A stretch of 38,283 nt of DNA from a virus. The position numbers were made by a program, and so were the translations under genes. The notes under the pieces are model-generated. The model was given only the letters and a program-made list of their open reading frames with translations, had not been told where the DNA came from and did not search any database. Below, one piece after another: positions 7,473-36,584 of the stretch (positions are counted from its first letter, which is position 1; each line of letters begins with the position of its first letter). Where the stretch lies: IMG/VR virus record IMGVR_UViG_3300032736_000345, positions 1 to 38,283 of that record. One strand, 5' to 3'.

Positions 7473-9299
7473 CTACTGCTCAGTCTGGCTCAAAAGTGCG
7501 TTAATGTCGCTGATATGTAAATTCTTGAATGCTGGGACTTTTGGGTCTTTGAGTTTAGAGTCTGTTATGGGATTTGACTTTGAAAGTTTTGCTGGGAGGG
7601 ACGTGTCTGTCTTTTGTCTCTTTTTAATTCCCTCCTCAGTCCAGTTAAGTCTAGGGTCTGATGGCTGAGAGTCTGCAGAGTTTGTCACTGATGGGCTGGC
7701 GTCCATGGAGTTCTGAGGCTCTGATTGGGATTGGTCTCTATATGATGAGTCATCGTTAGGATCACTGTTTGGTCTGCCTCCGTGGTCTGCAGCGTATGTG
7801 CTAAAGTCTGGCATTGGAGGCGGAGCCTGTCCTGCCATTGGTACCATTGACTGAGGCTGCATTGGGTTATACTGCTGCTCCATCTGTTCAGTCATTTCCT
7901 TTCTTAGGTTGAGTCCTGCGTCCTCTAGGAGTTGTCTCATCTCTACTGGATCCTGTACTGCTCCCGTGGAGATGGCAAGTTCAATAAGTTTGGTCTGCTG
8001 TTCTGTGTCAAGTTCTACCTTTACATCGCTGCCGAAACTGATTTCAGGGTTTGCCTCGTTCCATGCGATAGGTGTCATGCCACCGTTAATCCCTATAGGC
8101 ATTCCATACATATCTACGGTATTGTCGTATGCCCCTCCTGTCTGATCATACCATGGCTGGAATAGTTTGTTTTGCAGTTGGCGTGTAATTGCCAGTGGGA
8201 ATGAGGCTAGACCTATTTCTGTCTGAGCACTTGATTCCTCAGCGTTGGCATATTGGTGAGATTCCTCTCCTCCCTGCTTTCCTGTAAAAGTCTGCAGACC
8301 CTTGAGTATTTCACCCTGAACCATGTTTGTAAACATTGTAGGATCGAATGCTCTGGCAGCAGTTCCTAACTCCTGTACCTCTACCTTGTTACCAACTACA
8401 ATATCCTCTCCCGTGTCCAGATTGCCAAGGTCTGCCGTAAGTTGAGCCCTTTCTGTCTGGGAGGAGTTCATGGCTACATAGACATTGTGAGGGGTGTATC
8501 TTCTTTCTGTCAGGTGCATGGTCATGGCAGTAGAGTATTTTCTGTCCATAAGGGAGGGCAGTTTCTTTGATACCTGTCCTGATGGGGTAATTTCCTCAAA
8601 GTCCCTAGTAGAGCACAGCGAGGTCATGACACCTGTGCCAAACAGTGAGGCATTGATTGGGTTCCACAAAAAGTGCATGATGTTTGCAGCGTTAAAGTAG
8701 CCCTGATATTCTGAACCTCTAAACTCGTACTTGTATGGCATTCGTTGTCTGTCCCACCAAATACGAGCACATGATGATATTGGTATACACATTAAGTCGT
8801 CTTTATTTCTAATCTGATTGATCCCCAGTCTTGGTTTCCAAAAGGAATTACCATAGGTGATCACCTCTTTTACTAGGATAGTGTCTATCCAGTCAAAATC
8901 TATATCCTTTGAGAACTGGCTCATTTTGTCAGTGACAGCCTCTACCTCTGATTTCCAGTAGTGTGCTCCCCCTGTAATTTTAGAGGACAGGTCATTTACT
9001 GCAAGTGAAACGTCCTCGTCCCTCTCTGCATAGTACACCTGAGTCTTGAATGGTATGGTAGGAGTATCAAAAGTTCTGCTGGTATATCCCTCCCTCTCGT
9101 ATGATCCTACGGTGGAAAGTTCTGCTCCGAATACTGGCTGAGAGAATCCTCCTGCCTCTGCTATTTGGGAAAGTTCGGCTGCGTACTTTACTGAATTGAC
9201 ATTCAATGAATTATGAGGCTGTAAGCGTCCTGATGAAACCTGATTGCCACCTGAGATAAAATCTCCCAGTCCAGTACGCAGTCTATGAGCAAATCCCAT
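7473..9299 (-). CDS. Portal protein
   Basis: 608 residues, the usual size for a portal with an extended tail. Residues 130-230 have the portal core pattern (YGNSFWKPRLG, IPISSCARIWW, an aromatic-rich EYQGYFNAANIMHF segment, then LFGTGVMTSL). Long helices follow. The C-terminal 130 residues are a disordered Met/Pro/Gln/Ser-rich tail. The portal forms the dodecameric ring at the vertex through which DNA passes and to which TerL docks. It heads the head operon (portal, zincin, MuF-protease), with a promoter 24 nt upstream of the ATG. Confidence 0.85.
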   Translation of the reverse strand: MGFAHRLRTGLGDFISGGNQVSSGRLQPHNSLNVNSVKYAAELSQIAEAGGFSQPVFGAELSTVGSYEREGYTSRTFDTPTIPFKTQVYYAERDEDVSLAVNDLSSKITGGAHYWKSEVEAVTDKMSQFSKDIDFDWIDTILVKEVITYGNSFWKPRLGINQIRNKDDLMCIPISSCARIWWDRQRMPYKYEFRGSEYQGYFNAANIMHFLWNPINASLFGTGVMTSLCSTRDFEEITPSGQVSKKLPSLMDRKYSTAMTMHLTERRYTPHNVYVAMNSSQTERAQLTADLGNLDTGEDIVVGNKVEVQELGTAARAFDPTMFTNMVQGEILKGLQTFTGKQGGEESHQYANAEESSAQTEIGLASFPLAITRQLQNKLFQPWYDQTGGAYDNTVDMYGMPIGINGGMTPIAWNEANPEISFGSDVKVELDTEQQTKLIELAISTGAVQDPVEMRQLLEDAGLNLRKEMTEQMEQQYNPMQPQSMVPMAGQAPPPMPDFSTYAADHGGRPNSDPNDDSSYRDQSQSEPQNSMDASPSVTNSADSQPSDPRLNWTEEGIKKRQKTDTSLPAKLSKSNPITDSKLKDPKVPAFKNLHISDINALLSQTEQ

Positions 9300-9319
9300 G
9301 AATTAGATTAGTATGATTC

Positions 9320-9336
9320 GATAAAAGTGTCTAGTT
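9320..9336 (-). promoter_or_regulatory. Late promoter of portal operon (17-mer repeated at 35619)
   Basis: The minus-strand 17-mer AACTAGACACTTTTATC occurs exactly twice, here and at 35619-35635. The TATA-like CTTTTATC is about 24 nt before the portal ATG. An exact 17-base match in front of two separate transcription units marks it as a recognised promoter element. Confidence 0.6.
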
Positions 9337-9423
9337 ATTAAACAGAGAATCCCCATAGGCTCTGTTCATGGCTGGAAATTCAGGTGAATCTATCATGAGT
9401 AGTAGATATTCAGGGATTGTCAT
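9331..9423 (-). CDS. 30-aa micro-ORF
   Basis: Begins MTIPEYLLLMIDSPEF. Follows the preceding stop by one base and ends inside the portal promoter. No motif. Supported only by tight packing with its neighbours. Confidence 0.35.
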   Translation of the reverse strand: MTIPEYLLLMIDSPEFPAMNRAYGDSLFNN

Positions 9424-9424
9424 G

Positions 9425-9559
9425 TCACTTACCTCGAAGTGTAATCAGGCTACTAATTATGTGATATAATTCATGCAATTCTTTTAGTTCTTTATTTGTA
9501 ATATCATTCGTATAATTTAAGCCGACTAATAGAGCATATCTATCAAGTATTTTACTCAT
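9425..9559 (-). CDS. 44-aa hypothetical protein
   Basis: Begins MSKILDRYALLVGLNY; mostly helical, no motif. Its start overlaps the upstream stop (ATGAGTAA). An AGGAG sits 8 nt before the ATG, one of the few possible Shine-Dalgarno sites in the window. Confidence 0.5.
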   Translation of the reverse strand: MSKILDRYALLVGLNYTNDITNKELKELHELYHIISSLITLRGK

Positions 9560-9695
9560 TCCCGATTCTCCTAGTATTGTTTGTTCTATCCCCTATACAC
9601 CAAGGACATGTTTTATCTCCACATCCTCTCCATCTTCCTTTACCATCTTTCTCTGTTTTCTTATAGTCAGATCCAGTTCTTAAAGTTCTACTCAT
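9552..9695 (-). CDS. 47-aa cysteine-rich basic microprotein
   Basis: Very basic protein with CGDKTCPWC, three cysteines of a small zinc site, flanked by Arg/Lys-rich arms, a likely nucleic-acid binder. Overlaps both neighbours through ATGAGTAG and ATGAGTAA junctions. Confidence 0.5.
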   Translation of the reverse strand: MSRTLRTGSDYKKTEKDGKGRWRGCGDKTCPWCIGDRTNNTRRIGNE

Positions 9696-9840
9696 CAGGT
9701 ATTTCCTCTTCGCTAGACCCATTCTCTTCCTCCAATAGTTCCCTCTGTATTTTCTTTGAATCCCTTATCTCTGATATTCTCATGGTATGTCCTGGTTTGT
9801 GCCTACTCATCCCCGATTCTCCTGTTTGTAATTTAGCCAT
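9688..9840 (-). CDS. 50-aa acidic hypothetical protein
   Basis: Begins MAKLQTGESGMSRHKPG; the C-terminal half is acidic (ELLEEENGSSEEE). The ATG at 9840 overlaps the previous gene's stop; a second Met at 9810 follows an AGGAG. No family recognised. Confidence 0.5.
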   Translation of the reverse strand: MAKLQTGESGMSRHKPGHTMRISEIRDSKKIQRELLEEENGSSEEEIPDE

Positions 9841-9913
9841 TTTTTAGCTCTCCGTTTGGTAATTGAACTATATGAGCCTTATTCCTCGTCTTATTTTTTA
9901 TCTGTTCTGGCAT
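9833..9913 (-). CDS. 26-aa basic micro-ORF, first gene of operon
   Basis: Begins MPEQIKNKTRNKAHIVQL. A TATA box is centred 26 nt upstream, so a leaderless transcript would start at its ATG, and its stop overlaps the next start. That makes translation likely despite the length. Confidence 0.45.
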   Translation of the reverse strand: MPEQIKNKTRNKAHIVQLPNGELKNG

Positions 9914-9934
9914 ACTGTGTATTGGATCATTCCT

Positions 9935-9943
9935 TATTTAACT
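9935..9943 (-). promoter_or_regulatory. TATA promoter of the 9913-9331 small-gene operon
   Basis: AGTTAAATA on the minus strand is centred 26 nt upstream of the ATG at 9913. It begins right after the T-run that should end the structured RNA at about 9952. Confidence 0.6.
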
Positions 9944-9951
9944 AGTTAAGT

Positions 9952-10248
9952 AAAAGGTGTCGGCACTATCGTAGCCTGACAGCACGGTTTTTTTCCCTAT
10001 CGCTATAGGGTCAGGTTGTCTCCCTCTGGAGTTTTTTGAATGGGGACTCTCCTCCCATGTTGCGACACCGAAGTTAGCCAAGGGTTCGACGCCTTGGGTT
10101 ATCCTGTCACTGCTGGCTTTCCCCGTGCTCTGGATTTTCAGCACAGTTGTCTCCGCCCTGTGGGGTTTGCAGCGATACAAGTTCGCCCTCTGTTTTTAAA
10201 GTGGTAATCTGTAGCCACTCTCTCGTCAGAATTGCAATTCCAACGACG
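9952..10248 (-). ncRNA. Predicted structured noncoding RNA, about 295 nt (no family recognised)
   Basis: A GC-richer block between AT-rich flanks, with its own TATA box about 25 nt before the predicted start and a TTTT at the end. Helices visible on the minus strand: GGTGTCG/CGACACC closing the 3' domain (10063-10069 with 9956-9962); CCAAGG/CCTTGG hairpin (10092-10097 with 10078-10083); CCCTAT-AGCG-ATAGGG hairpin (10005-10010 with 9995-10000); CCTGA/TCAGG around it; long-range AGCACGG/CCGTGCT (10123-10129 with 9981-9987), which crosses the CCTGA helix and so implies a pseudoknot; ATGGG/CCCAT with loop AGGAGAGTC. GGAGACAAC occurs twice. An 80-aa reading frame through it looks unlike a protein. 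It does not match RNase P, SRP, tRNA or intron cores I can recall. Confidence 0.6.
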
Positions 10249-10268
10249 TCTTTTATTCAATAGTGAAT

Positions 10269-10277
10269 TATTTAAAT
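10269..10277 (-). promoter_or_regulatory. TATA promoter of the structured RNA
   Basis: ATTTAAATA on the minus strand, immediately after the stop of the 10280-10486 gene. With an archaeal 25-nt offset it predicts an RNA start near 10248, not a protein start: no good ATG follows at that distance. Confidence 0.6.
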
Positions 10278-10279
10278 GT

Positions 10280-10486
10280 TTAATTAAACTGCGTTATCAT
10301 ATCCTGACATACTCCCTCTTTGAGATACTTGCCTCCAGTGCCTCGCTTTGGTCTGTCCTTGTAAAATTCTGGGTGCACGATATTGGCACAGTCAAAGCAT
10401 AACTGCCATTCGCTCCAGTTATGGGCATACGGGTTCTTGGAAATCTTCTTGCAGCCAGTGTGTGATCTATATCCAGTACATCTCAA
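10280..10486 (-). CDS. 68-aa zinc-binding protein (TTG start)
   Basis: Begins (TTG) RCTGYRSHTGC and contains CFDC at about residue 30, so two Cys pairs plus His can form a zinc site similar to HNH-associated ribbons. The C-terminal half is Lys/Gly-rich. Upstream, AATAAAGTACAGTACGG resembles the downstream element of the promoter at 3498. No family recognised. Confidence 0.55.
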   Translation of the reverse strand: MRCTGYRSHTGCKKISKNPYAHNWSEWQLCFDCANIVHPEFYKDRPKRGTGGKYLKEGVCQDMITQFN

Positions 10487-10564
10487 CGCTTACAATACCG
10501 TACTGTACTTTATTGTACCTAATTGTTGCTATTGATAATATTTGACGAATAGCGTCCTTTACGT

Positions 10565-10669
10565 TTAAGATCTACGCCTCCAGTTCATGTCCATATAATG
10601 ACACTCTGGGCATTGTTGGTGGAGCCAGCAGTGTGCCTTTTTGGTTGTACTATGCTTTGTGGTATTCAT
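10565..10669 (-). CDS. Zinc-ribbon microprotein, uncertain start
   Basis: From the ATG the product is 34 residues and includes CPEC. The frame is open 27 nt further upstream and there codes for RCKTCM, which would complete a CKTC...CPEC ribbon, but no ATG, GTG or TTG begins that part. Either a non-standard start (ATA or ATT) or a frameshift from a 10-codon ORF beginning MRCKVK is used, or one sequencing error is present. Confidence 0.45.
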   Translation of the reverse strand: MNTTKHSTTKKAHCWLHQQCPECHYMDMNWRRRS

Positions 10670-34660: not shown

Positions 34661-35167
34661 TCATGCTAAATTTGCGTAGCGTTGTTTGTCATATTTTCTT
34701 CTACAAATTAAACATATTCTCACAATATTATTTTTTAAATATGTATTCTCAGTAGTAAATTCATGCCCATTATTACAGTGGGTTTTTCTGGCGTTTACTG
34801 CAGATGGGGATTTTCCTGACAAAACATTTTCTTTATGTGTTACCTGTCTTAAATGGACAGGATTACCGCATTTTCTATTCCTGCATTTGTGGTCTAATTC
34901 TAAATCAGGGCAGATTTGACCGTTATAATACTCGTAGATGAAACGGTGAACTAAAACTTTTTTATGATTAGGTGAAAATTGACCATATCCTGAATTGTTT
35001 AATCCTGCAGTCCACTCCCAGCAGCCAGAGTCAGTAACAGTTATCTTTGACAAAAATCTTTCAAGTGCTGAGTTCAACACTCCTAGTCTGACACTGATGT
35101 ATTTCAGTGTTAGGCTAGTTATGTTAGGAGGTTTTCCATTCTTAGAATGATACTGGAATGTAATCAT
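34661..35167 (-). CDS. HNH endonuclease (paralogue of 35644-36087)
   Basis: 168 residues. CWEWTAGLNNSGYG, VHRFIYEYYNG and LDHKCRNRKCGNPVHL give the same phage HNH plan as 1794-2228. Residues about 17-29 are encoded by a 39-base hairpin repeat that also precedes the paralogue. C-terminal zinc-ribbon-like cluster (THCNNGHEF, ICLICRR). Homing-endonuclease behaviour is plausible. Confidence 0.85.
   Translation of the reverse strand: MITFQYHSKNGKPPNITSLTLKYISVRLGVLNSALERFLSKITVTDSGCWEWTAGLNNSGYGQFSPNHKKVLVHRFIYEYYNGQICPDLELDHKCRNRKCGNPVHLRQVTHKENVLSGKSPSAVNARKTHCNNGHEFTTENTYLKNNIVRICLICRRKYDKQRYANLA
35085..35130. repeat. Hairpin repeat, copy 1 (39 bases)
   Basis: A 39-base sequence here and at about 36091-36131 is identical. 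Its centre is a stem ACACTGA/TCAGTGT with a 6-nt loop, bracketed by CTAG on both sides. In this copy it is within the HNH coding sequence. Boundaries are approximate to a few bases. Confidence 0.7.
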
Positions 35168-35643: not shown

Positions 35644-36087
35644 TTATTTGTTATTATAATATAATATTTTTTGACGTGTTTTATGACATAATTTACATGA
35701 TCTACTATTATCTTTCCTAATTGCAGTATTTTCAGGAGTAAATTCATGACCATTTTTACAGTGAGTTTTTTTGTTTTGATAGTGATTATTACCTTTAGAA
35801 TGTTTGCCGTGTCTCCCTGCATTACCTCTCTGAATGTTTATTCTATTCGTTACCTGTTCTAGATGTATAGGATTACTGCATTTTTTATTTCTACAGAGAT
35901 GATCTATTACCAAGTCAGGACAGATTTGACCGTGATAGTATTCATAGATGAACCTGTGGACTCTAATTTGTTTATAATCAATAATAATTATTCCATATCC
36001 ATAAGTAGATAATGATCCTTGCCATTCCCAGCAGTCAGAGTCAGTAACGCTTATCTTTTGTAAGATTCTTTCAATTACAGGTATCAC
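35644..36087 (-). CDS. HNH endonuclease (GTG start)
   Basis: 147 residues. CWEWQGSLSTYGYG, RVHRFIYEYYHG and IDHLCRNKKCSNPIHL form the HNH core; THCKNGHEF and CKLCHKTR complete a C-terminal zinc site. Paralogue of 34661-35167. The GTG sits right after the 39-base hairpin repeat; the frame is open upstream through the repeat, which encodes the same residues as in the paralogue, but no start codon is found there. Confidence 0.85.
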   Translation of the reverse strand: MIPVIERILQKISVTDSDCWEWQGSLSTYGYGIIIIDYKQIRVHRFIYEYYHGQICPDLVIDHLCRNKKCSNPIHLEQVTNRINIQRGNAGRHGKHSKGNNHYQNKKTHCKNGHEFTPENTAIRKDNSRSCKLCHKTRQKILYYNNK

Positions 36088-36396: not shown

Positions 36397-36408
36397 TAAA
36401 AGAGTTAA
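36397..36408 (-). promoter_or_regulatory. Late promoter TTAACTCTTTTA
   Basis: Third copy of the 12-mer; box TTTAAA is centred 24 nt before the ATG at 36374. It ends the structured-RNA region. Confidence 0.7.
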
Positions 36409-36553
36409 TGAGAGAATGCCCTTAATTCAGGATCTTTCCTCTCGAATTGATGGCAGCCCTATCCCCAAGGGCTCGATTCCATCGGTGACTCACAGCACTT
36501 GTTTTTAACGAGGATTAGATCCCTCTCGCTGGTTTTGTAGGAATACTATAGAG
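36402..36553 (-). ncRNA. Predicted structured noncoding RNA downstream of capsid gene
   Basis: About 150 nt between its TATA box and the next promoter, with no credible ORF. Minus-strand hairpins: CGAG...CTCG (36509-36528); GATGG/CCATC with inner AGCCC/GGGCT (36449-36483); AATTC/GAATT with inner AGGA-AAGA-TCCT (36424-36448), directly next to the previous one. TCGAGCCCTTGG matches the 9952-10248 RNA at 11 of 12 bases. Start from TATA plus 25 nt; end inferred. Family not recognised. Confidence 0.5.
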
Positions 36554-36573
36554 TAGAGGTTCCCCCTCTTAAA

Positions 36574-36584
36574 CATTTAAAAAA
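36574..36584 (-). promoter_or_regulatory. TATA promoter of the second structured RNA
   Basis: TTTTTTAAATG on the minus strand right after the capsid terminator. It predicts a start near 36553, where no protein begins, supporting a noncoding transcript. Confidence 0.5.

Follow-up and report, generated by a model that had tools for sequence, protein, structure and literature searches.

Does the GC-rich block located between the terminase gene and the portal-like gene of an IMG/VR virus encode a structured RNA and, if so, from which strand would it be read, where would it begin and end, and what might it do? The block belongs to record IMGVR_UViG_3300032736_000345, positions 1-38,283; this whole stretch of 38,283 nucleotides is the window analyzed here, and the block is numbered along it. 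An earlier note on the same DNA had proposed, from the letters and their open reading frames, a structured RNA with its own promoter.

Setting of the block

The GC-richer composition that the earlier note had described is readily recovered: in 150-bp windows, GC is 0.46-0.53 across ~9946-10252, compared with ~0.37-0.40 on both sides. Several complementary helices are also present inside, as it had said. It had further placed the block between a TATA box and a T-run; TATA-like, AT-rich sequence does flank 9946-10252, but a strong T-run terminator is missing from the minus-strand RNA described below. The identified genes around the block (large terminase, head morphogenesis and portal-like) all lie on the minus strand, with a small Zn-ribbon gene immediately upstream (Table 1). 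The portal-like gene has no PHROG match, and its name is drawn from its position and conservation. A tRNA search found none in the window, and there is no second copy of the block within it.

A terminase search returned eight viral loci, among them L007 (IMGVR_UViG_3300010883_019105), where the block is 77% identical over 311 nt and occupies the same place, between the Zn-ribbon and portal-like genes. A further contig, L002, matches the window exactly over the compared region and adds no information. Two distinct sequences are thus available, the window and L007, and the covariation reported here is a single comparison. Differences between the two are spread over all three codon phases, and indels between them break the frame. 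We accordingly rejected a coding block, and the comparison supports reading it as non-coding, in agreement with the earlier judgment that an 80-aa ORF running through it does not look like protein.

Table 1. Positions of the RNA block, its helices, candidate promoters and neighboring genes in the window
Feature	Position	Strand	Remarks
Small Zn-ribbon protein gene	10280..10486	-	Upstream of RNA; 68 aa; cysteines conserved in 5 relatives
Candidate outer promoter, AATTAAACATTTAA	10272..10285	-	Weak matrix score, 3.1; overlaps end of Zn-ribbon ORF; predicted start ~10249
Structured RNA block (alignment A4)	9946..10252	-	Homologue L007:3302-3614
Predicted RNA ends	5' ~10249 or ~10173; 3' near 9950	-	
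P1 hairpin, TCGTTGGA/TCTGACGA	10223..10246	-	All pairs kept through 1 double and 3 single changes
P2 hairpin, AGAGTGG/CCACTTT	10198..10221	-	Invariant, so gives no covariation evidence; overlaps candidate inner TATA site
Candidate inner promoter, GATTACCACTTTAA	10196..10209	-	Invariant in L007; predicted start ~10173
Long-range helix P4	10062..10186 (10186-10180 with 10069-10062)	-	2 of 7 pairs show double compensatory changes
Helix 6	10107..10175 (10175-10169 with 10113-10107)	-	1 double and single changes, all paired; encloses helix 9
Helix 9	10146-10140 with 10129-10123	-	1 double and single changes, all paired
3' domain	9959..10058	-	Helices 12-15
Helix 12	10058-10040	-	
Helix 13	10024-10013	-	Double changes
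Helix 14	10010-9995	-	Double changes
Helix 15	9980-9959	-	Double changes
Leaderless portal promoter, CTAGACACTTTTAT	9321..9334	-	Between RNA and portal-like gene; motif starts 35 nt before ATG
Portal-like gene	7473..9299	-	Downstream of RNA; 71 viral relatives

The minus-strand fold

Folded as a single sequence, the block is unremarkable on the plus strand (z -1.0) and weak on the minus strand (z -2.0). The consensus of the two sequences separates the strands: on the minus strand it reaches -70.6 kcal/mol versus -42.5 ± 5.2 kcal/mol for shuffled alignments (z -5.4, 0/200), whereas the plus strand, which the earlier note had implied, gives only z -1.2, near the control level. We therefore rejected a plus-strand RNA. 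The control consisted of 200 column shuffles that preserve conservation classes, with each alignment refolded. Of the 77 pairs in the minus-strand fold, 22 vary between the two viruses and none is broken; 11 of these 22 vary through changes on both sides, against a mean of 5.5 double changes in shuffles (0/500). Sliding the partners by 1-3 columns lowered pairing to 40-48%, a control flattered by the derivation of the fold from the two sequences being tested. The shuffle control is free of that bias because every shuffled alignment was refolded.

Sub-blocks of the fold are significant separately, namely P1 alone (z -5.2), 10178-10070 with helices 6 and 9 (z -4.8), and 10062-9958, the 3' domain (z -3.6), which holds an invariant 25-nt run, AACATGGGAGGAGAGTCCCCATTCA. 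Between the window and L007, paired positions are 79% identical and unpaired ones 72%, compared with 54-70% at four-fold sites of neighboring genes. Covariation among relatives had been suggested in the earlier note as a check on its reading; with the one relative L007, pairs are kept on the minus strand and the differences follow no codon phase. On the strength of this comparison, we consider it very likely that the minus strand of the block encodes a structured RNA whose fold is conserved.

The two particular helices that had been singled out are not retained in L007, and we rejected both. The proposed pseudoknot, AGCACGG/CCGTGCT, reads AGCATAA/CCGTTCC in L007, where 3 of 7 pairs form, and AGCACGG belongs to the conserved, covarying local helix 9. 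Similarly, the proposed closing helix, GGTGTCG/CGACACC, reads GGTGACG/TGGCTCC in L007 (5/7 pairs), and GGTGTCG belongs to the conserved, covarying long-range helix P4. A tool-free reading can spot a real structured RNA and yet err over both its strand and its helices.

Candidate promoters and extent of the putative transcript

Upstream of the portal gene, 44 distinct loci share an archaeal TATA motif (matrix consensus AAAAACACCTTTAA) that starts ~36 nt, and lies ~27 nt, before the ATG, a spacing which indicates that portal transcripts in this virus family would be leaderless. These loci provide a usable promoter matrix for the family, and the matrix applied here was learned from the portal promoters of 40 relatives. 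In both the window and L007, the portal promoter lies downstream of the RNA, so that the portal mRNA need not contain the RNA; with this promoter separating it from the portal gene, the RNA probably forms a transcript of its own. We infer that separate transcription is likely.

Two minus-strand sites could serve as the promoter of the RNA, and neither candidate appears decisive. The inner site, GATTACCACTTTAA, has a matrix score of 8.6 and lies within a 26-nt invariant run, but sites scoring near 8.6 arise by chance too. Because such sites occur by chance and P4 begins upstream of ~10173, we keep the 5' end as two alternatives, which would yield an RNA of ~300 nt, or of ~225 nt with the inner promoter as the true start. 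The plus-strand promoter claimed in the earlier note is not borne out: the site near its TATA box (9925) scores 1.6, compared with 8.6 for the minus-strand site inside the block, and the best plus-strand site within 9300-10600 starts at 10263, downstream of the block.

Two further observations concern the sequence around the portal promoter. Its exact 14-mer, CTAGACACTTTTAT, occurs twice on the minus strand, at 9334-9321 before the portal-like gene and at 35633-35620 upstream of a small hydrophobic ORF. Positions 9338-9945 (~600 bp) hold several tiny overlapping minus-strand ORFs, are missing in L007 and are flanked by the 7-bp repeat TAACTAG; this stretch resembles an insert acquired later, separating the RNA from the portal promoter.

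Distribution and competing explanations

The loci L003 and L008, whose terminases are 80-81% identical, have no block, and their portal-like gene follows the Zn-ribbon gene after ~30 nt. Because close relatives are without it, the RNA is dispensable. The ~400 nt preceding the block in L007 have no counterpart in the fetched loci. Among 38 virus records searched in full, many of them fragments, a covariance model found the RNA in the window, its twin and L007 only, and not in the 35 others. Over 70 sources and 4 host genomes, the model returned known viruses or chance matches only; in 400 Nitrosopumilales genomes, it gave two weak, chance-looking matches, in coding sequence, and searching these 400 at the DNA level yielded short chance-level matches only. 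Five motif patterns run against IMG/VR recovered the same two viruses and three chance matches only, and the phage and plasmid records searched for the RNA held none.

A portal query against cellular genome contigs produced no confirmed match. A search with a diverse terminase alignment found relatives in four cellular genomes. All four are thaumarchaeal, comprising one single cell of Marine Group I, Nitrosopumilus salaria and two MAGs, and these relatives support Nitrosopumilales, within the thaumarchaea, as the probable host group. The central proposal of the earlier note, an orphan structured RNA of a thaumarchaeal virus, is supported by the covariation with L007, the lack of a convincing Rfam match and terminase relatives that are solely thaumarchaeal.

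The Rfam comparison, also among the checks suggested earlier, gave no match at gathering score and chance-level matches only at E up to 10, GOLLD, ROOL, OLE, introns and HEARO included. This silence is informative because host RNAs are detected readily: in related host genomes, Rfam finds RNase P RNA at 181-199 bits and SRP RNA at 102-113 bits. These host RNAs, at ~280-310 nt, are of a size like that of the viral RNA, and GGAGGAGAGTCC superficially recalls RNase P. Locally aligned with host RNase P RNA, or with the one SRP RNA compared in sense, the viral RNA scored no higher than shuffled controls, and with Rfam also negative we rejected the RNase P resemblance (GGAGGAGAGTCC, ACAGAGGGCGAAC) as superficial. 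By analogy, the closest kind is that of the large structured phage RNAs typified by GOLLD and ROOL, no member of which matched. Those are phage-encoded non-coding RNAs with extensive conserved structure and a poorly understood function, ~650-800+ nt long, carried by bacterial phages and often found near tRNA islands (PMC12286853). By contrast, the RNA described here would be 225-300 nt long, its virus is archaeal, no tRNA was found in the window and Rfam returned no match. By-eye inspection for C/D and H/ACA boxes found none convincing, and a description of a structured RNA in a thaumarchaeal virus was not found in the literature searched.

It is fairly unlikely that the RNA acts in cis as a 5' leader on the head-operon mRNA, such as an attenuator, a riboswitch-like element or a stability element. 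Structured leaders are common regulators, and in L007 the block lies on the same strand directly upstream of the portal-like gene; however, the leaderless portal promoter, conserved in 44 loci, falls between the RNA and the ATG, and in the window ~600 bp with several tiny ORFs intervene. The conserved sequence might instead be regulatory DNA, with P1, a 24-bp near-palindrome, as an operator and P2 lying over a TATA box, and with a shorter RNA (~10173-9950) or none. The inner site GATTACCACTTTAA, with its score of 8.6, its identity in L007 and its place inside the invariant run, would fit such an arrangement, which we nevertheless consider unlikely: 10173-9958, downstream of that start, is significant as RNA alone (z -3.95), the covarying P4 begins upstream of it, and sites with scores like this one occur by chance.

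Two further explanations draw on the genomic position of the block. The phi29 pRNA is likewise small, structured and virus-encoded, with its gene close to those for packaging or the head, and the block is situated between the genes for the terminase and the portal-like protein. Yet a packaging RNA acting with terminase and portal is very unlikely here, as phi29 pRNA acts with a different ATPase than large terminase, whereas the packaging ATPase found among the ORFs searched is an ordinary large terminase of PHROG 675; further, relatives with 80% identical terminases are without the RNA at this place, and Rfam returned no match. Neither for packaging nor for the ribozyme or host mimic also raised in the earlier note did we find positive evidence, similarity to host RNAs being at the shuffled level. 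A selfish or mobile structured element (a self-splicing intron, an IS-associated guide RNA or a non-autonomous insert) residing in a neutral gap would agree with the presence and absence of the block between close relatives, with a gap just after a stop codon and with the HNH endonuclease genes elsewhere in the virus. It is nonetheless very unlikely, since no intron, HEARO or other Rfam model is convincing at E up to 10, the block interrupts no gene and lies between complete ones, no second copy occurs in the window, and no transposase or IscB/TnpB appears among the proteins tested.

We favor, at roughly even chances, a lineage-specific non-coding RNA gene of a Nitrosopumilales head-tail virus, with its own TATA promoter, ending before the portal promoter and likely acting in trans. 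The RNA would be read in the same direction as the surrounding genes, from an archaeal TATA promoter of its own after the Zn-ribbon gene, and would stop short of the portal-like gene's own leaderless promoter. Its predicted fold begins with 5' hairpins, followed by a central domain that P4 closes and a 3' domain whose loops are invariant. During infection, the invariant segments would most probably act in trans by binding a protein of the virus or the host, or a second RNA. We infer both the ends of this RNA and its action in trans; a role in a trans-acting ribonucleoprotein is our best single guess, held tentatively and at somewhat less than even chances. More speculative, and quite unlikely, is a new class of trans-acting 225-300-nt ribonucleoprotein RNAs that seize a host complex or join capsid assembly, encoded in a Zn-ribbon/portal gap where different small RNAs would sit in other members of the virus family. 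If transcribed, the RNA would represent a family that Rfam lacks, one linked to viruses whose hosts are abundant marine ammonia oxidizers, and the corrected strand, helix list and covariance model make it searchable in metatranscriptomes.

Different short non-coding blocks, preceded by TATA-like sequence, occupy the Zn-ribbon-to-portal gap in L051, L005 and L039, which hints that this gap may be a small-RNA slot. L051:3335-3475 and L005:6005-6130 share CCTTCAGAACTGCCTTA(C/A)AGGCACTCTCTTAGGATTT, and their shared fold is weakly significant (z -2.4, 4/200). In L039:3565-3675, after the Zn-ribbon gene, TATA-like sequence is followed by a stretch closed by GTTATTGGG...CCCAATAAC and a T-run; no relatives of this block were found. 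Elsewhere in the window, another minus-strand block poor in ORFs and rich in hairpins, 176 nt long, occupies 36405-36580 between two genes (single-sequence z -1.2), with no Rfam match and no relative in the 38 records. Two related HNH endonuclease genes (phrog_826), at 34661-35167 and 35644-36087, both carry AACTAGCCTAACACTGAAATA at the 5' end or close to it, which suggests that the pair may have arisen by duplication or homing.
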